A DNA stretch of 64,000 nucleotides from Magnetococcales bacterium (GCA_015228815.1 JADGCV010000025.1:1-64000); one strand, 5' to 3'. Positions 23,702 through 35,776 are shown, counted from the first letter of the stretch. The notes: generated by a model not told the origin, from the sequence alone. Translations and numbers: made by a program.

Positions 23702-23942
23702 GAACATGATGCCCTTCGGGAAAAAATAAAAACCCTGGGAAAAATCCCTGGAGACTTTTTTTCTTAAAAAGGTTGCTTTTCCGATACGTAAACAGAGGAT
23801 TCTTCCTCTTCGATCGCCGGCTCATCTTGGCCTTTGGGTTTTTCTTTCCGTTCGGCTTTCGATTGTGCAAATCGCCGCTTTCCTGATCCGCTTCGATGAG
23901 ATCCTGGGACGAATCATTAACGGAAAAAGAGTTCACAATCAT
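23685..23942 (-). CDS. Possible small basic protein, coupled to the upstream gene
   Basis: 85-codon frame whose ATG overlaps the stop of the upstream small gene in an ATGA (23939-23942), which is the main reason to list it. The translation is Lys/Arg-rich (NRKPNGKKNPKAKMSRRSKRKNP cut short here to its basic character) and its last third is encoded by the terminator-like repeat and runs 17 bases into the 3' end of ubiB, which argues against a conserved protein. No family recognised. It may be a decayed gene. Confidence 0.28.
   Translation of the reverse strand: MIVNSFSVNDSSQDLIEADQESGDLHNRKPNGKKNPKAKMSRRSKRKNPLFTYRKSNLFKKKSLQGFFPGFLFFPEGHHVLIGWA
23729..23770 (+). repeat. Dispersed terminator-like repeat, copy D (degenerate)
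   Basis: AACCCTGGGAAAAATCCCTGGAGA followed by a nine-base T-rich run lies 28 bases after the ubiB stop (quoted here as the stem CCTGGG and ATCCCTGG). The stem is weaker than in other copies, but place and T-tract suit an intrinsic terminator for the ubiE-ubiJ-ubiB transcript. Confidence 0.55.
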
Positions 23943-24337
23943 GTTCTTCTTGAAGGTTCCAACGGAAGAAGATTTTTCCGTTTTTGGTTCAGGTCTCTTC
24001 GGGATTCCTGGAGGTCCTTCACAACAGATCTACCTGCCACACGAGCAGCTGCCTGCATCACCTTCCTGCCATCCTGGTAAATCCGCGAACCATCCTGCGA
24101 CAACGCAGCGATTGCCATCTTTATCGATGCGTCATGCAGCGTGTTGCGCATGGAGGCGGCATACAGCGTGTCGCACTGCGGAAGTGTGTTCTCCACATCG
24201 GAAAAAACCAGCCCGCCCTTTTTGAAGGATGGCACTTTGATCGTGACTGAGCCGTCCTTTCGATGCTCTACCCGTTCCCTTGTTTCGGGAGCCAGGTTCA
24301 GGATGCTGCTCATTCCCTCAAGAAAAGCCCGATTCAT
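23939..24337 (-). CDS. Small uncharacterised cytoplasmic protein
   Basis: The ATG at 24337 is preceded by GAGGTGAC and gives 132 residues starting MNRAFLEGMSSILNLAPE. The N-terminal third (ETRERVEHRKDGSVTIKV) looks like a short beta segment; the rest is helical and Arg/Lys-rich toward the end (SVVKDLQESRRDLNQKRKN). No signal or membrane segment, and no family recognised. It lies downstream of the HlyD-type adaptor genes on the same strand, but 125 bases separate them, so membership in that operon is not shown. Confidence 0.6.
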   Translation of the reverse strand: MNRAFLEGMSSILNLAPETRERVEHRKDGSVTIKVPSFKKGGLVFSDVENTLPQCDTLYAASMRNTLHDASIKMAIAALSQDGSRIYQDGRKVMQAAARVAGRSVVKDLQESRRDLNQKRKNLLPLEPSRRT

Positions 24338-24462
24338 GACTGTCACCTCAAAAAATTCGTCCCTCCGCGGCAAGCCGCAATGCATATCAGGATACCACTT
24401 GGACCCAATAAAATCACTGGGGTTCCCGCATCATCCTTTGCAAATGCAGTGCCTGGATTATT

Positions 24463-25851
24463 CTACCATCCCGTCTTCTGACGCAGGAAGGCCAGGGGGC
24501 GGCGCAACAGATAATACCACAGCCGCACCCGCGCCCCCTCGATCCGTGCGGCGCCCCGCAATCCCAACCGCACCCCGTCCACCTCCCCCTCGAATCGGGC
24601 GCGAAAACGAAATCCCAACAACCCTTCCGGAGAAGGACGCGCTTCGAAATCGGCCATCACAAGTCGGGCCGCCAATGGTTGATGCGGATGAATGTTCAAG
24701 AACATCCCAACCCTTGTCCCCCGTTCCAGGGCGATGGCATCGGCAACGGGAATCCACCCCTCCACTTCCACCTTTCCCGGATCGGCCAGAACCATCACCG
24801 ATTCACCTACCCGGACCGGTCGTCCCAGCCATTGGTTGGGATCGTTGAAGACGGCCACCCCGTCACGCAAGGCACGGACTTCGACCAGGGCCAATTGTCC
24901 CGCCGCAAACCGAACCTCCGCCTCCTTCATCGCCACCGCAGCCTCCAATAAAGCGACTTCGAAACGGCTCCGATCATCATGAAAACCTTTTCGTCGCGCA
25001 TTTTCCAGATTGGCCGCTTCCACCTCCAATCCTTTCAGGGCAATTGCATGACGGTTTTCAAGTTCCGTGTCCTCAAGGCGAAAAAGTGAAGTTCCCTCGC
25101 GGACTTCCTGATTGGGCTGGACGAAAATGCGCGCCACGACGCCATCCAGGGGTGCGTTCATGGCCACCGGATCGATCGGGACGATCCGCGCCGGGGCCAG
25201 GACCGTCAGGTGGACCGGAATGAAAGCAAACACCGTCACGACCGTCAACGTCAGGAAAACGGCCCCTCCCGGCTTCAAACGTCGCAACCAACGTCCGGGA
25301 TGAAGAAGACATCGCCCGACGACAAACCGTTCCCAGGTCTCCCCGAAACTGCCCCCCAGATGCCCGAGGAGCCACAATTGACGTGGGGAAAGCGGTGTGT
25401 CGCAAAACCAGATGATTCCCGCCATGGGGGGACCGGAAGGAGAAACCAGGAACACCCAATACCCATGGGGCGGCAACCATTGTTCCCACAAAAAACGCTG
25501 CGCCGCCGAAAGACGGGTGGTATCGATGCGTTGCGGCTGGAAAAGAGGTTCCTCGAAGGTCCATTGGTGCAACAGGGCGGTCAGCCATGAAAGAAACGGT
25601 CCCTGCGGGTCGGGATCGACAACATGCGACGCCCCCTGGACCCGCCAGCGCTTTCCCGCGAAACGCCCGAACAAAACCGCCATCCGAAAGGAAAACAGGT
25701 TCCGGGTTTCGTCGAGCATGATGCGAACCGCCACCTCCCGGGTCGGCGCTTTTCTCAAGGAATGTTCCAGGCCGAGCAATGACTCCAACCATGCCGCTTC
25801 GTCGGCTCCGGTTCCGGGATGGAGCGAACGACGATCATCGACCATGGGCAT
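24463..25851 (-). CDS. HlyD-family adaptor with N-terminal cytoplasmic domain
   Basis: 462 residues. The first 190 residues are soluble, with a GAF-like appearance (LFSFRMAVLFGRFAGKRW, HGYWVFLVSPSGPPMAGIIWF). One membrane segment follows at about 203-225 (AVFLTLTVVTVFAFIPVHL), then the periplasmic HlyD part: a lipoyl-like half (PLDGVVARIFVQPNQEVREG), a helical hairpin (LEVEAANLENARRKG to FAAGQLALVEVRAL), the second lipoyl half (DGVAVFNDPNQWLGRPV) and beta-barrel domains. Such adaptors bridge inner-membrane pumps and TolC. It overlaps the preceding adaptor gene by 11-17 bases. A GAF-like domain on an adaptor suggests sensing or docking in the cytoplasm; that is inference. Confidence 0.82.
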   Translation of the reverse strand: MPMVDDRRSLHPGTGADEAAWLESLLGLEHSLRKAPTREVAVRIMLDETRNLFSFRMAVLFGRFAGKRWRVQGASHVVDPDPQGPFLSWLTALLHQWTFEEPLFQPQRIDTTRLSAAQRFLWEQWLPPHGYWVFLVSPSGPPMAGIIWFCDTPLSPRQLWLLGHLGGSFGETWERFVVGRCLLHPGRWLRRLKPGGAVFLTLTVVTVFAFIPVHLTVLAPARIVPIDPVAMNAPLDGVVARIFVQPNQEVREGTSLFRLEDTELENRHAIALKGLEVEAANLENARRKGFHDDRSRFEVALLEAAVAMKEAEVRFAAGQLALVEVRALRDGVAVFNDPNQWLGRPVRVGESVMVLADPGKVEVEGWIPVADAIALERGTRVGMFLNIHPHQPLAARLVMADFEARPSPEGLLGFRFRARFEGEVDGVRLGLRGAARIEGARVRLWYYLLRRPLAFLRQKTGW

Positions 25852-26692
25852 CGACTTCTGGAGATGTCGGTCCCGGAAAAAAGGCCATGCCGCTCATTCC
25901 CGCCAGAAGTTCGGGGAAAACCCCCTTGATCGAACCCCAGACCCCCAGGGTTTGACTGGCCGGATCGACACGCGCCCCAATGGCGGTCACCCGTGCCGGA
26001 TAACCCGGTCCCCCCTCCTTGAGACGAAATTCAAACGGAATGTCGGGCCGGAGCCATGAAGACCAGGCCCACGGGACATACATGGAGATTCCGAGGGGAC
26101 CAAGGGCGATGATGTCGAGAAGCGGCGCTCCCGCGGCGACGCCATCGAAGGGCTGGACATGCCGTTTGCCGACCCGACCGTCGAACGGGGCGTGAAGATC
26201 GCATTGCCGCACCAGAACCTGGGCCATGCCGACATCGGCGCGCGATTTTTGCACCATCGCCTCGGACAAGGCCAGTTCCATTTGGCTGGCGCTATCGAGT
26301 TCCGCCATGCGGCGGTTGACCGCATGTTTTTTTTCCGCAATGTGCAGATCGGCCTGGTCCTTGGCCAATTGCGCCTTGGGCATCGCGCAGTCGAAAACCA
26401 CCAGAAGATCCCCTTTCGAAAACGAACCTCCCTCCCGGACATGGATCACCTCGATCCGCCCCGCCATGCGGCTCGAAAGGGTGGCAAAGGCGGCAGGTTC
26501 CAGCATGGCCCGCTGCACACCGGATTCAGACTGGGCCGACGTTGGGAAAAAAATTCCCGAAAAGAAAATCAAGGACACCCAGGCATGACGACCTGAAGAA
26601 AAACAGCGACGATCCGTCCGTAAAGAGGTCTTTCCCCCCCGGCGGGATGTGTGACAAAATCCAAGGATTTTCAAGGATGACCTCTTGTTCAA
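25835..26692 (-). CDS. Periplasmic adaptor (RND/HlyD membrane-fusion family)
   Basis: Short membrane-fusion protein of roughly 245-285 residues. A hydrophobic signal-like stretch (VSLIFFSGIFFPTSAQS) is followed by a lipoyl half (RMAGRIEVIHVREGGSFSKG), a helical hairpin (AKDQADLHIAEKKHAVNRR to EAMVQKSRADVGMAQVLV) and the second half (CDLHAPFDGRVGKRHV), then a beta-barrel domain. The start is uncertain: a TTG at 26692 overlaps the stop of the FlgO-like gene, while a GTG at 26578 would put the signal sequence at the N-terminus. It is cotranscribed with the second adaptor, with which its end overlaps. Confidence 0.8.
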   Translation of the reverse strand: MNKRSSLKILGFCHTSRRGGKTSLRTDRRCFSSGRHAWVSLIFFSGIFFPTSAQSESGVQRAMLEPAAFATLSSRMAGRIEVIHVREGGSFSKGDLLVVFDCAMPKAQLAKDQADLHIAEKKHAVNRRMAELDSASQMELALSEAMVQKSRADVGMAQVLVRQCDLHAPFDGRVGKRHVQPFDGVAAGAPLLDIIALGPLGISMYVPWAWSSWLRPDIPFEFRLKEGGPGYPARVTAIGARVDPASQTLGVWGSIKGVFPELLAGMSGMAFFPGPTSPEVDAHGR

Positions 26693-27273
26693 TATTCCGG
26701 ACGTTGCCAATCATCATAACGCCCCTTGACGGAGCGTTCGACGAGATGACTTCTGGGAATGGCAAAATCATGTGCCGCAAGGACATGTCCGTCACTACGG
26801 ACGATTTTCGCGGTGACATAGACATGATCCTGCACGACCGAATAGGTCCCCACCAACAGGGCCTGGGCATTCTGTTCGCGGCTGATGTGTTTCAGGGAGC
26901 GTGACAGGGCAAATTCTCCGGAAGTCGAATGGATGTACAATTGTTCCCGCAATTTAAGTTCGATGAAGGCAAACCCCTTCTGCGTTAAACGCGAAGCGAT
27001 CTGCTCGGCGATCAACCGGCCAAAAGTCGAGGTTTTATCAAGATTGTCCAGTTCGACGAAACTGGCCACCAGCAACGGTTTGTCGCTCTGAAGGGGATTG
27101 AGTTTTTGATCGATTCCCTGACCCAGGTTGTCTACCAGACGGTCCGCCGCCGGATGGGTGAATTCGATAAGGGAGGGTTTGTAACTTTCGGTGACGCATC
27201 CCGAGAGAAATCCGACCATCATCAGTGTCAGAAACCATCGAAAAGATGCCAGTAAACCCATTGAAAGAGTCAT
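26689..27273 (-). CDS. FlgO-domain lipoprotein
   Basis: 194 residues from the ATG at 27273, which overlaps the stop of the TolC-like gene (ATGA). A lipoprotein signal is visible: LTLMMVGFLSGC, with the lipidated Cys in SGCVTES. The mature part matches the FlgO domain (LLVASFVELDNLDKTSTFGRLIAEQIASRL, here its core FVELDNLDKTSTFGRLIAEQ), first named from a Vibrio outer-membrane flagellar protein. No flagellar genes are nearby; its place between a TolC-like channel and two adaptors suggests an outer-membrane or periplasmic part of that assembly. Confidence 0.82.
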   Translation of the reverse strand: MTLSMGLLASFRWFLTLMMVGFLSGCVTESYKPSLIEFTHPAADRLVDNLGQGIDQKLNPLQSDKPLLVASFVELDNLDKTSTFGRLIAEQIASRLTQKGFAFIELKLREQLYIHSTSGEFALSRSLKHISREQNAQALLVGTYSVVQDHVYVTAKIVRSDGHVLAAHDFAIPRSHLVERSVKGRYDDWQRPEY

Positions 27274-29036
27274 TGATCGACAAGAATCCATTTTTTTGTC
27301 CCCTCTGAAGAGTTCGAGGCGGCGGGTGACGCGAAGCCCCTGACGGTTTTGCCGGAGGCGTCCGCAGCGGATGGAGCGGGAATATTGGGGTTCGTGTCTT
27401 GATCCCCCACCAGCGGCCAGCGGCGTGGACTCAGAGGACGCGGTGGCGGTGCGGAACGTCCAAACCAGGGCATGATGGCGTCAAACCGGTCTGTGCCCGT
27501 GGCGGGAGGAGTCCATTCGAGGGGTCGATCGGGATGGCGTTCCTCATGAACAAACCGGGCCAGGGCGCGCAGATCCCCCCCATGCACCACTTCGGGAGGG
27601 GGAAGTTGTTCGAGTCCGACCGAATGAAGAATCATGCCGTAGGCGTTTTGCAGTTCGGCGTAGGAACGGTCCCGTTGAATGGCCGCCACCAACCCTTCGA
27701 CCTGCCGCCGTTCCAGGGCAAGGGAGGCCCCGCCCCGAACTGATTTGGCTGCCGATTCACGCAGCGTCTGCCGTTTTTTCAGGGCATACAATTCATCGGC
27801 AAGGGCGAAATCGCTTTTGGCCTGTTGGAAATCCTGAACCGCCAGATTGACCTGTGTCAAAATTGTCATGGCCATCGCCAGACGGCGGGCCATGGCCAAT
27901 TGTTCGCCGATCCGGGCCGTCTGGAAACGTTCCGGAGCGGCGAACAGATCGTTGAGGCTGTAACTGAGTTCCCAGGCGACCTCGCCCCATCCCGAATGCC
28001 TGAGATAGCGGTTGTCATCGGCGCGGCCTGCGAGGGTGGTTTCCAGTCCGGGAAGGATCTTGAGCAATGCCACCCGGGTTTCCATGGCGCTGATCCGCTG
28101 TCGATAATCCTCTTCGAGCAGTTCCGGACGGCTGACCATGGCCAGCTCTTCCAACTGCCCGGTTGAAAAACCAACTTCGGGGACCTCAAGATGGTCCCGA
28201 ACCGAAAGATCCAGCAGCCAGGGGGTCCCCGGACGAATGTTCATGAGCGAGGCCAGACGTGTCTTGGCCTGAAGCAACTGTTTTTGCAGTTCCACCATGA
28301 ACTGGATCTGCCGCAGCAATTCTTCCTGATCGTCCATTGTTTCATCGGAAGATCGCAACCGTTCCCGTTCCAGCCGTCGTGATTTTTCGAGCGCCAGTCG
28401 CGCCGTTTGCAGCCCCGATTCCACTTCCGGAAGGAGCGCTTCGGCGCTGAGAGCCTGCCAAAAGGCAAAGCGAACGTCGCGAACGATGTCGAGGGCCACC
28501 TTGCGCTGCCGTTGCGCCGCGATCAGCAGGTCGTCCGCCTGCTGGTGGGCATGGATGTAACTGACGCCGAAATCGAGCAGATTCCAGACCAGGGTCGCAT
28601 CGCCCGAGGTGTAGATTTTTTCCAGGGAGGTGGAAAAACCGCTGGCCGTGGTCCCACCCTCGATGGGATCGCTGAAACTGGCAGCATCCCGGGTCCGCTC
28701 ATGGCGGGTCAACGAGCCGCCGATCACGGGCAAAAGTTGTTGCAATGCCAGATTCAGCCGGCCATGCGCCAGGGCGGCCTCGACCATTTTGACCCGTTGT
28801 TCCAGATTATGGTTCAAGGCCATCTTCAAGGCATGTTCCAGGGTGACGGGTTGTCCGGGCCGGGGGGCCTCGATCTGCAATTGTTCCTGATCATGCAGCG
28901 CCCGATCGGCGATGGCCTGTGCCGGCAAGGGAGATGGTTGTACCGAACAGGCGTTGATCAGCAGCGACACCCATCCAAGAACCAAAAGACGCGGCAGGTG
29001 AAGTGATGATGTCGGGTGTCTGTCGAAAGCGATCAC
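27270..29036 (-). CDS. TolC-family outer-membrane channel protein
   Basis: About 588 residues from a GTG at 29036 preceded by GGAGATCGAGG; an ATG 60 bases upstream (29096) is possible but lacks a ribosome site. A lipoprotein-type signal (LLVLGWVSLLINACS) is followed by an Ala/Gln/Leu-rich helical body with two related halves, as in TolC (VTLEHALKMALNHNLEQRV; LAMAMTILTQVNLAVQDFQQA). The C-terminal 120 residues are Pro-rich (PWFGRSAPPPRPLSPRRWPL), an unusual tail that could lie in the periplasm. Cluster position ahead of the FlgO-like and adaptor genes supports a trans-envelope conduit. Confidence 0.83.
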   Translation of the reverse strand: MIAFDRHPTSSLHLPRLLVLGWVSLLINACSVQPSPLPAQAIADRALHDQEQLQIEAPRPGQPVTLEHALKMALNHNLEQRVKMVEAALAHGRLNLALQQLLPVIGGSLTRHERTRDAASFSDPIEGGTTASGFSTSLEKIYTSGDATLVWNLLDFGVSYIHAHQQADDLLIAAQRQRKVALDIVRDVRFAFWQALSAEALLPEVESGLQTARLALEKSRRLERERLRSSDETMDDQEELLRQIQFMVELQKQLLQAKTRLASLMNIRPGTPWLLDLSVRDHLEVPEVGFSTGQLEELAMVSRPELLEEDYRQRISAMETRVALLKILPGLETTLAGRADDNRYLRHSGWGEVAWELSYSLNDLFAAPERFQTARIGEQLAMARRLAMAMTILTQVNLAVQDFQQAKSDFALADELYALKKRQTLRESAAKSVRGGASLALERRQVEGLVAAIQRDRSYAELQNAYGMILHSVGLEQLPPPEVVHGGDLRALARFVHEERHPDRPLEWTPPATGTDRFDAIMPWFGRSAPPPRPLSPRRWPLVGDQDTNPNIPAPSAADASGKTVRGFASPAASNSSEGTKKWILVDQ

Positions 29037-29114
29037 GGTACCTCGATCTCCAGAACGGATGCGCTTGAAAGAGTATGGAATGGCAAAAGGTTGCATGCCG
29101 ATCTTTTCAGGATT

Positions 29115-32100
29115 TCATCCCTGAACCGCAATCGTTGCCATCATCGCCGAAATCTGCCGGGAAAACCCGGGACGACCCGAAAGGGGAAGACTTGATCGTT
29201 CCCCGAAAGAGACAGGTTCAGAGGATGGTTCCCGAGTCTCCGTGGCAGATGGAACCGAAGTCTTGGTCGGGTCGAAAAGGTTTTGTTCCAGGGTGTCGCC
29301 TCCTTCTTGCGTTGGTGGTGCGGCGGTGACGGGCGTGGATCCGTTGGCGGGGGGCGCCGCGGACAATGGGATCGAACCTTGATGTTTCGTTTCTTCCAGC
29401 AAGGGATCGAAGGAAAGAATTCTGTTCCATGGCAACCCGCCACTGTCCCGGAAAAATGTCGCAAGGGAGGGGGACGGAAGGTTGATCATGGAAGATTCGT
29501 TTCCAGGAAAAAGGCTTATCGTGGTCCGGGAAGAAATCGCCCCAGGGGCCGGTACTCCTTGAATCCCCGAAAAAGAGAATTCAAGGTTCGTCGGTCGGAC
29601 AATATCCGGGCGATGGGACTGAAGCGCACGGGTCCATTCCCGCCGGGGGGCGGAAACGAGGGTAGACGACACGAGGGACGAGGATTGCGTCGATGTCGGG
29701 GATCCCTTTGTCCCGGAAAGGGTCGTTGTGGAAGGAGGATCCTGAAAACGATCCGGATCGGGCGGAACGGGACCGGGGGTCAGCGGATCCTGAATCCTCC
29801 AGACGATGGTGTGCGACTGTTGGCCGATGGCGGTGGCCCCGCCGATGAATTCCAGGGTGATGCCGCCCTGGCCATTGCGTCCCCAGGTTCCATCCCAGGG
29901 GTGAAAAACGAGGGTGGCATCGGAACGGGAAGACAGGGTGTCGGGAACGAAACGCAGACGGGTCCGACCGTCATCCATCAACAGGGTCGCCGCCGATTCC
30001 ATCCAGGAATCCGCATCGGACGCATGGGCCAACTCCGACCAGTTGGCCCCGTTGTCGGTGGAAAATTGCCACGAACCGTTTCCTCCGGTCCGGGTGATTG
30101 CGATGCCCCGGTCGTCATCGGAATTGACGTCGATCAATCCTCCTCGCAAAACATCGGCGATGGTCAATCCCCGCTCCAGCTCCCCCGTGCCGATGATGTG
30201 TTCGGAGGGGATGCGTTCCAGGTCAAGGCGGGGAGAAATGTTGACCTCGGTCAAAAAAAGATGATGCACGACCGTTGCCACCAAGGCATCATCGACCAGA
30301 TTGCCGCCGGTCGAGACGTGGGAAACCAGATGTCCGTCGCCGCTGATGCCGGGACGCATCATTTCCGCCCCATTGGAACCCGCTCCCGAGGCATTCCGGG
30401 AAAGACGCACCGTCTGACCGGTTTCGACGCTGTGATGAAACAGATCGACGGCCTCATTGCTGTCCACGGTGATGATGCCCGGATTGTCAAGGTCGGTGGC
30501 CTGGGAGAGAAAGACAACGAACCGGCCATCGGCGCTGATGACAGGATCGAAACTGTCCCCGTTGGCGCCGTTGCCCTGGCGATCGAGCGACAGGATGCGA
30601 CAGGGTCCGGTTTGGTCTCGTTGATAAAGAAAAACATCTCCGGCTTCGTTGACATCGTTCTCGGACAGATTGGTGGCGTGGGAGGCAAAGACGATGAGAC
30701 GGCCATCGGCGCTGATGTCGGGAGTGCGGCTGGGGCCATCGGCTGGTGCGGTCCCCTGGAGGCGTTGCGCGGTCGTGCCTCCCTGGGCGGATACGAGAAA
30801 AATGTCCGTGACGCCGTTGTGATCGAGCAAAGCAAGATTGGAAGCATCGGATGCAAATACGACCCATTGACCATCGGCACTGATGGCAGGATCGAAACTG
30901 GCGCCGTTGGCCGATCCAAGGTCCATGGCGACCGAAAGGCGAACGGTCGTTTTCAAGGTTGCGTCGCGCAGGAACAGATCCTGAACCCGGTTGTCGTCGC
31001 CGGCACTCAAATTGGTGGCGCGGGAAATGAAAACGATCCGATCGCCGGCGGCGGAAACATCGGGAGCGAAACTGGCATCGTTGCCTTCGATACCGTCGGA
31101 ACGGACCGAAACCCGGTCGAGACGGTTGTCGGCAAGGGAAAAGCGAAACACATCGGCGCGAAAATTGTTGTCGCCCGATACCAGGTTGGCGGCGGCGGAA
31201 ACAAAAACAACGGTGCTGCCATCGCCGCTGATCACCGGATCGTCGCTCGGGCCATTGGCCTGCCCGGTGGCGGGTGTGGAAATCTTCCGTATTTCACCGG
31301 TTTGGTTGTCGCGCAAAAAGACATCCCTGAAACCGTTGCGATCATCAGCGACCAGATTGGTGGCATCGGAAGAAAAAACCAAAAATCGACCATCATCGCT
31401 CAGTGAAGATTCCTGATTGTCGGCGTTGCCCGGAATCAGGCGGATCGCGGAACTGTCAAACCCCGTGGAAACAAGCTCATTGGCAAGGGTAACCGTGCCA
31501 CCGGGAACGATGGAAGCGGTCCAGCGCGCAATTTCGCTGCTGAAGGGGGTGGTGCCGCCATTGTCCAGGGTATCGACCCCCATCGTTCCCGAGATCATCT
31601 CATCAGTGGCACGCACGTCCCAGGCACGAAATTCAATGCTGGTCTCGCCGATGAATCCGGGGTTGGGGACAAAACGGATCCGATCCTCGGTGGTGGCGGT
31701 CAAGAGCAGGGCCGACTCGGGGGAAACCTCGGTTATTTCACGCCAATGGCTGCCGCCATCGGTCGCATGAAACCACCGGCCATTGGCATCATCGCGGGCA
31801 ACGATGGCCATCCCCTGATACCTTACCTTGTTTTCCGGGTCATTGTCCTCCTCGATGTCGGGATCATCGACACGATTCCCGAGAATGTTGGCGACAAGGT
31901 GTCCCACCTCGGTCAACATGGAAGCGGGATCGGTCTGTTCAAGTTTGGGATCCTTGACGAAATAGCGGTCGGGAAGGAGTACCGCATCGCCCCATGCCTG
32001 CTGGGTCGGAGCAAAATCAAGCCCGGTCCTGGCGGCAATGGCGGAATCCTGTTTCAAGGTCAGGATCAGAGTGGCGTCGCGGTCGTCGGCGTCGGTAACC

Positions 32101-32645
32101 GTCACCCGAAGGGTGCGATCCTCAAGGGTCAGGGAGGATTCGCTTCCGGTATGACGATACAGATAACGAACCGCGTTCAGGGCCGTCTGAAATTCCGCCG
32201 CCGCAAGGGGTTGACCTTCCCTGGGAGACAAGGTCAAAACGCCATCGTCCCAGCGACCAATCATGGAAGTATTGTCTGAATAATCAAGTTTATCGGCCAT
32301 GGCGTCGTGCGGGCCGATGAATTCAAGGCGCGCCTCGACCAGTTGGCCATGCCCTTCGTCCCCAAGCGTCATCGCGGGAAGGGTGATCGCAATCCCGTCC
32401 GTGGCAAAGGTGCGAGAGGAATCCTGGGTCTTCAGGTCCGGGGGCTTGGAAGTCGGTTCGCCATCGCCTTCCTGGAATTGGAGTGCAAGCGCATCGGAAA
32501 ATCCGGCGGCATCGAACATCATTCGCGGTTCCAACGCCAGAAGACCTCCGCCAACGGAAGACCATCGGCGCAAACCATGGCGCTCAATGCCACGAAGTCG
32601 TCGAAACATTCGCAACAAACCATCAAGAAGGCGCGGCATTTCCAT
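29115..32645 (-). CDS. Large LEPR-motif protein with seven-repeat beta-propeller
   Basis: 1176 residues. The N-terminus is basic and then carries GGGLLALEPRMMFDAAG (about 33-48), the LEPR-type motif known from very large bacterial surface or secreted proteins; there is no ordinary Sec signal. Residues about 410-800 hold seven PD40/WD40-like repeats with the pattern P.ISADGR.VVF.S.A.NL, six clear and the seventh degenerate. The propeller is flanked by two copies of another module (about 278-345 and 847-925) with G.W..STD.G..W.E and RFVP. The last 220 residues are Ser/Pro/Thr-rich. First gene of the cluster with the TolC-like, FlgO-like and adaptor genes; probably exported or displayed. AGGA precedes the ATG. 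Confidence 0.8.
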   Translation of the reverse strand: MEMPRLLDGLLRMFRRLRGIERHGLRRWSSVGGGLLALEPRMMFDAAGFSDALALQFQEGDGEPTSKPPDLKTQDSSRTFATDGIAITLPAMTLGDEGHGQLVEARLEFIGPHDAMADKLDYSDNTSMIGRWDDGVLTLSPREGQPLAAAEFQTALNAVRYLYRHTGSESSLTLEDRTLRVTVTDADDRDATLILTLKQDSAIAARTGLDFAPTQQAWGDAVLLPDRYFVKDPKLEQTDPASMLTEVGHLVANILGNRVDDPDIEEDNDPENKVRYQGMAIVARDDANGRWFHATDGGSHWREITEVSPESALLLTATTEDRIRFVPNPGFIGETSIEFRAWDVRATDEMISGTMGVDTLDNGGTTPFSSEIARWTASIVPGGTVTLANELVSTGFDSSAIRLIPGNADNQESSLSDDGRFLVFSSDATNLVADDRNGFRDVFLRDNQTGEIRKISTPATGQANGPSDDPVISGDGSTVVFVSAAANLVSGDNNFRADVFRFSLADNRLDRVSVRSDGIEGNDASFAPDVSAAGDRIVFISRATNLSAGDDNRVQDLFLRDATLKTTVRLSVAMDLGSANGASFDPAISADGQWVVFASDASNLALLDHNGVTDIFLVSAQGGTTAQRLQGTAPADGPSRTPDISADGRLIVFASHATNLSENDVNEAGDVFLYQRDQTGPCRILSLDRQGNGANGDSFDPVISADGRFVVFLSQATDLDNPGIITVDSNEAVDLFHHSVETGQTVRLSRNASGAGSNGAEMMRPGISGDGHLVSHVSTGGNLVDDALVATVVHHLFLTEVNISPRLDLERIPSEHIIGTGELERGLTIADVLRGGLIDVNSDDDRGIAITRTGGNGSWQFSTDNGANWSELAHASDADSWMESAATLLMDDGRTRLRFVPDTLSSRSDATLVFHPWDGTWGRNGQGGITLEFIGGATAIGQQSHTIVWRIQDPLTPGPVPPDPDRFQDPPSTTTLSGTKGSPTSTQSSSLVSSTLVSAPRREWTRALQSHRPDIVRPTNLEFSFSGIQGVPAPGAISSRTTISLFPGNESSMINLPSPSLATFFRDSGGLPWNRILSFDPLLEETKHQGSIPLSAAPPANGSTPVTAAPPTQEGGDTLEQNLFDPTKTSVPSATETREPSSEPVSFGERSSLPLSGRPGFSRQISAMMATIAVQG

Positions 32646-32976: not shown

Positions 32977-35100
32977 ATGGCCGTCCGCGCTGTTCAAACC
33001 CTTCCCTTGAACCTGGAGGAGACTGCCCTGCAACCCGCTTCGTTGGACATCTGGGACAGCAAATACCGTCTGAAAAAGCAGGATGGAACTCCGGTCGATC
33101 ACACCGTGGCGGACACCTATCGACGGGTGGCGCGGGCGTTGGCAGATGTCGAGGAACCAACGGTACGCGAAACATGGTATGAAAAATTTTTCTGGGCATT
33201 GGAAAACGGTGCCATACCCGCGGGACGGATCATTTCCAATGCAGGGGCCCAGGAATACAAACCTGCCACCAGCACCATCAATTGCACGGTCTCCGGCATC
33301 ATCGACGATTCCATGATCGGGATTCTCGACAAGGTGCGGGAGGCGGGACTGACGTTGAAGGCGGGATGTGGCATTGGATATGAATTTTCCACGTTGCGAC
33401 CGCGGGGCGCCTTTGTGGCGGGAGCGGGGGCGAGCACTTCGGGACCGCTTTCCTTCATGGATATTTTCGACGCCATGTGCCGCACTGTCTCTTCGGCCGG
33501 CGGACGGCGGGGGGCGCAGATGGCCACCTTCGACATCAGTCATCCCGACATCCGCGAGTTCGTTCGGGCCAAAAGAGAGGATGGACGTCTCAGGCAGTTC
33601 AATCTTTCCTGCCTGATCAGCGACGCCTTCATTCAGGCGGTTCGGGACAATGCCGACTGGAATCTGGTGTTTCCCGCCAATGCCAATGAGATTGAAGATC
33701 CCGATTGTCCCAAGATGTATGGCCCCTGGCCGGTGCGGGAAGGGTATCGCCAGAACGACCAGGGGGACGTGGCCTGTCGCATTTATGCCTCGATTCCGGC
33801 GCGACGGTTGTGGGATTCGATCATGCGCTCCACCTATGATTTTGCCGAACCGGGGTTCATTCTCGTGGATCGGGTCAACGAGATGAACAATAACTGGTTT
33901 TGTGAGAACATTCGTTCGACCAATCCCTGCGGAGAACAACCGCTCCCCCCGTATGGCGCCTGCCTTCTGGGGTCGATCAACCTGACCTGTTTCGTCAAGA
34001 ATCCCTTTGCCGCCAATGCCACGTTCGACTTTCCCAAATTTCGCGAGGTTGTGGCGATTTTTACCCGAATGATGGACAATGTGGTGGCCATTCATGGCCT
34101 GCCTCTGGCAGAGCAGGGGCAGGAATTGATGCGCAAGCGCCGTCATGGCATGGGTTTTCTCGGATTGGGCTCGTGCATGGTCATGCTGGGAATGACCTAT
34201 GGGGACGAGGCGTCCATCCGGTTGACCGAGGATGTGACGCGCGAACTGGCCATCACCGGATGGCAGGTGGGGGTGGAATTGGCCCGGGAGAAGGGACCGG
34301 CGCCGATCATGGAAGAATTGTTCGAGATCACTCCCGCCATGATCGCCCGGCGTCCGCAGTTGGTCCGGGATGGTCATTCGGTGGGCGACAGGGTTCCGGG
34401 AAAGGTTTTGATGGCCCGGTACAGTCGGTATCTGCAACAGTTTCCCGAAAAACTGCGAGAGCGGATCGCCGAGTCGGGGTGCCGTTTCACCCACCATTCC
34501 TCGATCGCTCCGACCGGAACCATCTCTCTTTCCCTGGCCAACAATGCCTCCAATGGCATTGAGCCCAGTTTTTCGCACAAGTACAGCCGCAACGTGATTC
34601 GCCAGGGGCGCAAGACCAAGGAAAAGGTGGATGTCCTGTCCCACGAACTCTATTGCTATCGGGCCATGATCAATCCCGACGCCGATCCCGAGGCCATGGA
34701 GACCGAAAACCGATTGCCGCGGCAGTTCGTCGATACCAATGCCATCGATCCCAAGGCCCATGTCGATATTCAGGCGGCGGCGCAAAAATGGATCGATTCC
34801 TCGATTTCCAAGACCATCAATGTCGCAACCGACTATCCTTTTGAAAAATTCAAGGAAATCTATCTTTATGCCCATGAACGGGGGTTGAAGGGGTGTACCA
34901 CCTTCCGTTTCAACCCGGAGGCTTTCCAGGGCGTCCTGGTCAAAAAGGAGGATCTGGCGGCGACGACCTATCGTTTTGTCCTGGAGGATGGTGGCACCGT
35001 CGAGGTCCGGGGCAATGAAACGATCGAATACGACGGCGAAACGCATACCGCCGCCAATCTTTACGATGCCCTCAAGGAGGGCTATTACGGCAAGCTGTGA
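32977..35100 (+). CDS. nrdJa: Class II (adenosylcobalamin-dependent) ribonucleotide reductase, large part
   Basis: Reduces ribonucleotides to deoxyribonucleotides with a B12-derived radical, independent of oxygen. The 707-residue protein carries the ten-stranded barrel: INCTVSG (one redox Cys), the catalytic loop NPCGEQPLPPYG with Cys318, and SIAPTGTISL near the phosphate site. It ends after a Gly/Glu-rich region (TVEVRGNETIEYDGE) and lacks the C-terminal part, which is encoded by the next gene 28 bases downstream. The split matches the nrdJa-nrdJb arrangement known in Pseudomonas aeruginosa. GGAGG precedes the ATG. Confidence 0.93.
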   Translation: MAVRAVQTLPLNLEETALQPASLDIWDSKYRLKKQDGTPVDHTVADTYRRVARALADVEEPTVRETWYEKFFWALENGAIPAGRIISNAGAQEYKPATSTINCTVSGIIDDSMIGILDKVREAGLTLKAGCGIGYEFSTLRPRGAFVAGAGASTSGPLSFMDIFDAMCRTVSSAGGRRGAQMATFDISHPDIREFVRAKREDGRLRQFNLSCLISDAFIQAVRDNADWNLVFPANANEIEDPDCPKMYGPWPVREGYRQNDQGDVACRIYASIPARRLWDSIMRSTYDFAEPGFILVDRVNEMNNNWFCENIRSTNPCGEQPLPPYGACLLGSINLTCFVKNPFAANATFDFPKFREVVAIFTRMMDNVVAIHGLPLAEQGQELMRKRRHGMGFLGLGSCMVMLGMTYGDEASIRLTEDVTRELAITGWQVGVELAREKGPAPIMEELFEITPAMIARRPQLVRDGHSVGDRVPGKVLMARYSRYLQQFPEKLRERIAESGCRFTHHSSIAPTGTISLSLANNASNGIEPSFSHKYSRNVIRQGRKTKEKVDVLSHELYCYRAMINPDADPEAMETENRLPRQFVDTNAIDPKAHVDIQAAAQKWIDSSISKTINVATDYPFEKFKEIYLYAHERGLKGCTTFRFNPEAFQGVLVKKEDLAATTYRFVLEDGGTVEVRGNETIEYDGETHTAANLYDALKEGYYGKL

Positions 35101-35128
35101 GTCTGGGTTCATTCATCCAAGGGGAGTT

Positions 35129-35776
35129 GTGAAGGCTGTGAAGATCGAGAAAAAGATTGTCGGTTACGAGGTGGTGTCCCGGAAAGGGGAGGACAAACCT
35201 GCCGTGTCCACTCCCGAAGCGAAATCCCGGGAGGGCGCCGAGGTCATCATGATGCAACCCTTGCTCAAACGACCGACGGAACTTGAAGGATCCACCTACC
35301 GCATTCGCACCCCGCTTTCGGAGCATGCCCTTTATGTGACCATCAACGACATCGTGGTCAACGGCAAGCGGCGTCCTTTCGAAATTTTCATCAATTCCAA
35401 GAATATGGAAAATTTCGCCTGGATCGTGGCGCTGACCCGCATCTTGTCGGCGGTTTTTCGTCATGGTGGCGATGCGACTTTTCTGGTGGAGGAATTGCGT
35501 TCGGTGTTCGATCCCCGCGGTGGATATTTCAAGCCAGGGGGAAAATACATGCCCAGCCTGGTGGCGGAGATTGGCGAGTGCATTGAAAATCATCTGATCA
35601 AGATCGGCCTGATCAAACCGCCGGAGATTTCCCACGAATTGGCCGACAAACGGGAACGGGCGCAGTCGGTTGGCATTCTTGGGGCTGACCAGTGTCCCAA
35701 GTGTGGACAATTGGCCGTGGCACGCCTGGATGGCTGTGATACCTGCCTGGAGTGTGGTTATTCCAAATGTGGTTGA
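35129..35776 (+). CDS. nrdJb: Class II ribonucleotide reductase, C-terminal part (TSCPD domain)
   Basis: About 215 residues from a GTG at 35129 (a GTG at 35138 has better spacing from GGGGAG). The central part (YRIRTPLSEHALYVTINDIV) to NMENFAWIVALTRILSAVFRHGG resembles the TSCPD domain found at the C-terminus of fused class II reductases. The end has a cysteine-rich knuckle CPKCGQLAV...CDTCLECGYSKCG, suitable for metal binding or for passing reducing equivalents to the active site. Follows nrdJa in the same direction and must act with it. Confidence 0.88.
   Translation: MKAVKIEKKIVGYEVVSRKGEDKPAVSTPEAKSREGAEVIMMQPLLKRPTELEGSTYRIRTPLSEHALYVTINDIVVNGKRRPFEIFINSKNMENFAWIVALTRILSAVFRHGGDATFLVEELRSVFDPRGGYFKPGGKYMPSLVAEIGECIENHLIKIGLIKPPEISHELADKRERAQSVGILGADQCPKCGQLAVARLDGCDTCLECGYSKCG

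Follow-up and report, generated by a model that had tools for sequence, protein, structure and literature searches.

The gene cluster at positions 24463-32645 of the window, a 64,000-nucleotide stretch of DNA from a Magnetococcales bacterium (GCA_015228815.1, JADGCV010000025.1:1-64000), probably encodes the cargo, the outer-membrane channel and the adaptors of an exporter that carries proteins across two membranes. The inner-membrane component, a fusion of a PqqD-like domain, an M50 protease core and an HlyD domain (M50-HlyD), would be supplied in trans by a gene at C1:221575-223689 of the same genome; we place the probability of this reading at roughly two in three. The architecture of the exporter, whose function is predicted, appears to be categorically new, because no pump was found where type I secretion and tripartite pumps have one by definition, while the duct parts are the same. 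We found no description of LEPR, M50, HlyD and SecA combinations in the open-access literature searched, and the architecture is apparently undescribed.

The cluster consists of five minus-strand open reading frames, as a preliminary description of this DNA had stated. Four of them, encoding a TolC-type protein, an FlgO-like protein, a short adaptor and an HlyD adaptor with a GAF-like domain (GAF-HlyD), overlap by 22, 22 and 17 bp, and an 18-bp gap separates the cargo gene from the TolC gene. The features are as follows:

29115..32645, minus strand: cargo, a 1176-aa LEPR protein with a TolB-like PD40 propeller (Pfam PD40, 2e-15) and a proline-rich tail
32508..32534, minus strand: N-terminal LEPRMMFDA of the cargo, residues 38-46 (from the alignment; 57 bits in its own genome)
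29151..29165, minus strand: C-terminal motif FSRQI of the cargo, residues 1161-1165, matching [FL]xxQ[LIVMF]
27270..29096, minus strand: TolC-type outer-membrane factor with the lipobox-like signal LLINAC (Pfam OEP, 1.6e-17)
26689..27291, minus strand: FlgO-like lipoprotein (PF17680, 2.5e-38)
25835..26710, minus strand: short periplasmic HlyD/RND-type adaptor with a Sec-like signal (TIGR01730, 99.9 bits against a cut-off of 94.9; Pfam HlyD_3)
24463..25851, minus strand: GAF-HlyD, a GAF-like cytoplasmic domain followed by a TM helix and an HlyD adaptor (Pfam HlyD_3, AlphaFold2, Foldseek)
25306..25806, minus strand: GAF-like alpha/beta domain of GAF-HlyD, residues 16-182 (secondary structure of the model)
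23939..24385, minus strand: small gene separating the cluster from ubiB, outside the system (no family match)
32977..35776, plus strand: nrdJ-type ribonucleotide reductase gene with a TSCPD gene, a synteny anchor (in the sister genome G002 the M50 gene comes straight after)

Pfam matches to the TolC channel, the adaptors and the LEPR protein support the earlier suggestion of an envelope-spanning conduit encoded together with its cargo. The AlphaFold2 model of GAF-HlyD reached a mean pLDDT of 92 and matched MacA/MexA in Foldseek (3e-15); the GAF label stems from the secondary structure of this model together with a Pfam GAF match of 5e-5 in a sister-system homologue. Orthologues of the cargo occur in three further loci (L139, L141 and L142), and the SVQP lipobox context of the window TolC is found in the same three. 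FlgO was rejected as a core part, as among the M50 loci its presence beside the cluster is confined to the window's genus; one further FlgO gene, at a greater distance from the cluster, is found in L099. Two FlgO-like genes in tandem were also seen at L027:9006-10249 (G000:C23), far from any TolC or M50 gene.

No gene for an ATPase, a pump or an inner-membrane protease is linked to the window cluster. The preliminary description was borne out in noting that no ABC, RND or other ATPase gene accompanies the cluster, there being none among its genes and no conserved ATPase gene in 80 related loci. Its further statement that an inner-membrane protease is lacking applies to the window and not to the genome as a whole, which carries four genes of about 700 aa in which an M50 core is flanked by a PqqD-like N-terminus and an HlyD domain (A-type), and one of a sister type. 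The A-type genes on C3 and C28 lie in full TolC-adaptor-GAF/HlyD-M50 sets, the one on C43 comes after a GAF-HlyD gene where the contig ends, and the fourth, at C1:221575-223689, is solitary. The search for a distant M50 partner of the window cluster thus led to this gene, and the claim that the M50 gene is absent and replaced by a small gene does not hold: the M50 gene was relocated to C1, and the small gene is unrelated.

Of the eight genomes in the genus, five (G000, G002, G004, G005 and G007) carry a GAF-HlyD of the window type. These same five also have the solitary M50, the five M50 proteins forming one clade with a support of 100, and G006 (97% complete) has neither. The gene order of G002 links the two parts on one contig: petB is followed at some distance by an AMP-binding gene, M50, nrdJb and nrdJ, then by the divergent LEPR-TolC-FlgO-HlyD-GAF/HlyD cluster, ubiB and SCP2, and the M50 and cargo genes are 3.4 kb apart with nrdJ between them. 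In the window, nrdJ/nrdJb, the cluster, ubiB and SCP2 are arranged as in G002, and C1 of the window genome holds petB (97% identical), the AMP-binding gene (71%) and M50. The simplest reading of this arrangement is a single ancestral locus that would have been split in the window genome at the M50-nrdJb junction. As a substitute for M50, the small gene at 23939-24385 was rejected, since it matches no family and is absent from L139 and the other fetched loci; in G002, no gene and just about 43 bp separate GAF-HlyD from ubiB, and the small gene is an unrelated insertion. Co-occurrence and synteny together suggest that the lone M50 on C1 serves the window cluster. A locus that has been split and has no linked M50 might alternatively be a decaying, non-working copy. 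We regard this as highly improbable, as its five open reading frames are intact, the G002 orthologues are 58% (cargo) and 68% (adaptor) identical, and a matching intact M50 is retained in all five genomes. A split of this kind also means that operon-based annotation can miss a key part of the system.

An AMP-binding enzyme of 833-858 aa adjoins the solitary M50 in four genomes (L009:4531-7107, L174:3948-6455, L175:5170-7671 and L177:4288-6795) and is a possible functional partner of it.

When the M50 protein was used as query against the genome collection, 577 relatives were obtained, of which the best 80 come from many proteobacterial genera. GAF-HlyD stands beside M50 in 77 of these 80 loci, and in most cases the short adaptor and TolC precede it, in agreement with the mention of similar clusters with an M50-adaptor fusion in the preliminary description. 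A Thiomargarita M50-HlyD (L038:5789-7930) has no GAF-HlyD neighbour, with upstream DNA present. The set of M50-HlyD, GAF-HlyD, adaptor and TolC is widespread in Proteobacteria, and full sets are also found on plasmids:

L219, NZ_CP104683.1: E. coli
L216, NZ_CP012916.1: Azospirillum brasilense Sp7 plasmid p2, genes AMK58_RS22620-22640
L218, NC_009353.1: Magnetospirillum gryphiswaldense MSR-1 (pMSR-1)
L220, NZ_CP107078.1: Kosakonia

These plasmid sets are annotated piecemeal; those of E. coli reside on IncF plasmids, and among 5426 genomes of this species 24 have the M50 gene of the E. coli set.

Across 61 relatives, 108 GAF-HlyD genes face 106 M50 genes, with unequal counts in just six genomes, and neighbour-less GAF-HlyD and M50 occur together in 18 genomes (Fisher, p = 3e-7), part of this unlinked set being due to contig breaks in draft genomes. 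The window genome itself has four LEPR-MFD cargos, four A-type M50 and four GAF-HlyD genes. Among 269 genomes outside the window's order, the LEPR cargo was found in 25 and M50 in 30, with both in 25 and LEPR alone in none. LEPR is hence present in 25/30 M50 genomes vs 0/239 M50-less ones (Fisher, p = 1e-30), a comparison favoured by the origin of the LEPR model, most of whose input came from M50 loci; this bias does not explain the zero in the 239. The genomes are also interrelated, so that the p-values overstate independence. The five other M50 genomes gave no LEPR match, and 28 of the 31 LEPR genes in the 269-genome set lie at most 25 kb from an M50. A lack of co-occurrence, which would have spoken against the proposed association of these genes, was clearly not what we observed.

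The duct resembles type I secretion (HlyB-HlyD-TolC) in its TolC-type channel, its HlyD-fold adaptors and a large repeat-rich cargo encoded beside channel genes. It differs in that an M50 core fused to an adaptor is found instead of an ABC exporter, the cargo carries an N-terminal LEPR motif and three different adaptor proteins are present. With regard to a C-terminal secretion signal as in type I cargos, a conserved C-terminal [FL]xxQ[LIVM] motif of putative function is seen. An unlinked ABC exporter could still push the cargo through the TolC/adaptor set by ordinary type I secretion in trans, as the window genome has eight ABC_membrane genes, several of them of sufficient length for a type I exporter, along with canonical type I adaptors at other places such as C4, C5 and C15. 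We consider this improbable: no ABC_membrane match was found in the window contig, near LEPR genes or beside the genome's M50 loci, and the window adaptors score 24.2 and 17.8 bits against TIGR01843 (cut-off 208.65). Moreover, five genomes (G064, G095, G113, G199 and G261) have the system and no type I adaptor that reaches the curated cut-off, and all of these but G113 have a LEPR cargo. Tripartite pumps (MacAB-TolC, AcrAB-TolC) share the adaptor fold (MacA/MexA in Foldseek), with TIGR01730 exceeded by the short adaptor only; they differ in having an RND, MFS or ABC pump where M50-HlyD stands here, and in that the operon here includes a protein cargo.

The cargo was correctly recognized as a LEPR protein without a Sec signal, LEPRMMFDA starting at residue 38 of 1176 and a Sec-like hydrophobic stretch being absent. 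Only 4% of 28 LEPR proteins exceeded the hydrophobicity threshold vs 97% of Sec-type adaptors and 94% of TolC proteins. A 23-row alignment gave the N-terminal signature [AS]-LE[PQS]R-x-[ML]-[FY]-D-[AG], with L15, E16, R18 and D22 invariant, and no conserved twin-arginine motif in the LEPR N-termini. At the other end, [FL]xxQ[LIVMF] was found within the last 50 residues of 14/16 LEPR cargos; the rate was 9% in shuffled sequences and 8% in the remaining cluster proteins, the motif having been picked by eye on the very sequences counted. Both end motifs were present in 3/3 held-out full-length cargos (A. brasilense, E. coli and Kosakonia). In the pMSR-1 cargo, the N-terminal motif is missing and a C-terminal FQEEL is retained. 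LEPR is present in all 13 giant ORFs adjoining the set whose N-terminus is visible, and most remaining M50 loci have an open-ended giant ORF in the cargo position. LEPR-XLL (NF012209, LEPR-8K) likewise describes long proteins that bear a short LEPR motif at the N-terminus; the window cargo scores 14.5 against its cut-off of 17 bits and has LEPRxMFD[AG] rather than LEPRxLL, and the record names a motif, no export system.

In G004 and G005, LEPR cargo and TolC form a single uninterrupted ORF of 1892 and 1977 aa, respectively:

L141:3021-8954 (G005): cargo-TolC fusion ORF
L142:3109-8787 (G004): cargo-TolC fusion ORF

As these two genomes are close, the fusion counts as one event. Its junction retains the C-terminal cargo motif and the TolC lipobox, and an in-frame TTG present there could allow a separate TolC start. 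An apparent fusion of TolC to a giant ORF in Rhizobacter (L105) was dismissed as a spurious frame in GC-rich DNA. A 7484-aa open frame starting with the motif MEPRFLLS was observed on G000:C14 from about 64600 (L021, L022); after it come DUF3467 and, where the contig ends, a GAF-HlyD-like gene of 622 aa.

The M50-HlyD protein may act through both its protease core and its PqqD-like domain. Across 81 M50 sequences, H200, E201, H204 and D302 (HExxH and the distal Asp) do not vary, and protease activity is therefore probably needed. Over residues 33-391, the protein matches the daptide protease NF041824 (8e-45; 153.5 bits against a cut-off of 300), and the PqqD match (2e-4) is to a sister-type M50 protein, the PqqD-like label of the N-terminal domain resting on profile matches only. 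Daptide and YydH/LiaK epipeptide proteases share the PqqD-like N-terminus and M50 core; they differ from M50-HlyD, which has an HlyD adaptor domain and apparently a large protein as substrate. The PqqD-like domain and these protease matches suggest recognition of an N-terminal leader. Since the nearest characterised M50 models are RiPP-maturation proteases, the set might instead export a peptide or small molecule, with M50 freeing LEPR as a leader, in the manner of RiPP pathways, and with an incidental large protein. We find this decidedly improbable, as in many species the LEPR region precedes large repeat domains, hundreds to thousands of residues long, the C-terminal cargo motif is conserved as well, and the giant cargo is the only conserved flanking family beyond the duct parts in the 80 loci.

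For the predicted protein exporter, we propose that the cytoplasmic PqqD-like domain would recognise the LEPR leader, which the M50 core would clip at or in the membrane, and that the HlyD parts of three proteins may build a periplasmic duct to TolC. The cargo would thereby reach the outside or the cell surface, where the C-terminal motif possibly holds it. An intramembrane protease-adaptor would then stand in for the pump of a TolC-dependent exporter. If true, such an export route, with an adaptor-fused intramembrane protease in the pump's place, would explain the exit of LEPR-tagged giant adhesins and propeller proteins across Proteobacteria.

The A-type clusters have no ATPase gene to account for the energy step. 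SecA was rejected as a part of A-type loci, with no match in the loci examined and no accessory SecA in 19/44 A-type genomes. The sister-type M50-HlyD genes are adjoined by a SecA paralogue of roughly 670 aa in 35/43 cases. This is reminiscent of accessory SecA2 systems; they differ from the systems here, which are Gram-negative, have TolC/HlyD parts and, in A-type clusters, lack a SecA gene. Because the sister system has its own SecA paralogue, housekeeping SecA is our best guess for the motor, weakly favoured. Tentatively, a SecA-type ATPase (housekeeping here, dedicated in the sister type) may drive LEPR proteins via a gating and trimming PqqD-like/site-2-protease/adaptor fusion straight into the TolC duct; the C-terminal motif would then be a second signal, for sorting or retention. 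The dedicated SecA paralogue also fits a different route, in which Sec or Tat would carry the cargo across the inner membrane with an atypical signal, M50 would only process the leader, in keeping with M50 proteases being processing enzymes by family, and HlyD/TolC would only carry the periplasmic form out. This route seems doubtful to us, given LEPR N-termini without a Sec-like hydrophobic segment or conserved twin-arginine motif and an M50-adaptor fusion that suggests an additional structural role.

Further variation was noted among M50-HlyD loci. Eight distant members have no adjoining SecA paralogue (G022:C133, G023:C14, G024:C73, G036:C38, G039:C133, G041:C503, G043:C38 and G025:C19). Sister-system loci were seen in G000:C22 (L202:2465-9486), G018 (L206) and G002 (L201); that of G018 also has TolC, an adaptor, GAF-HlyD and a giant LEDRILLS protein, and that of G002 a TpsB/FhaC-like gene.
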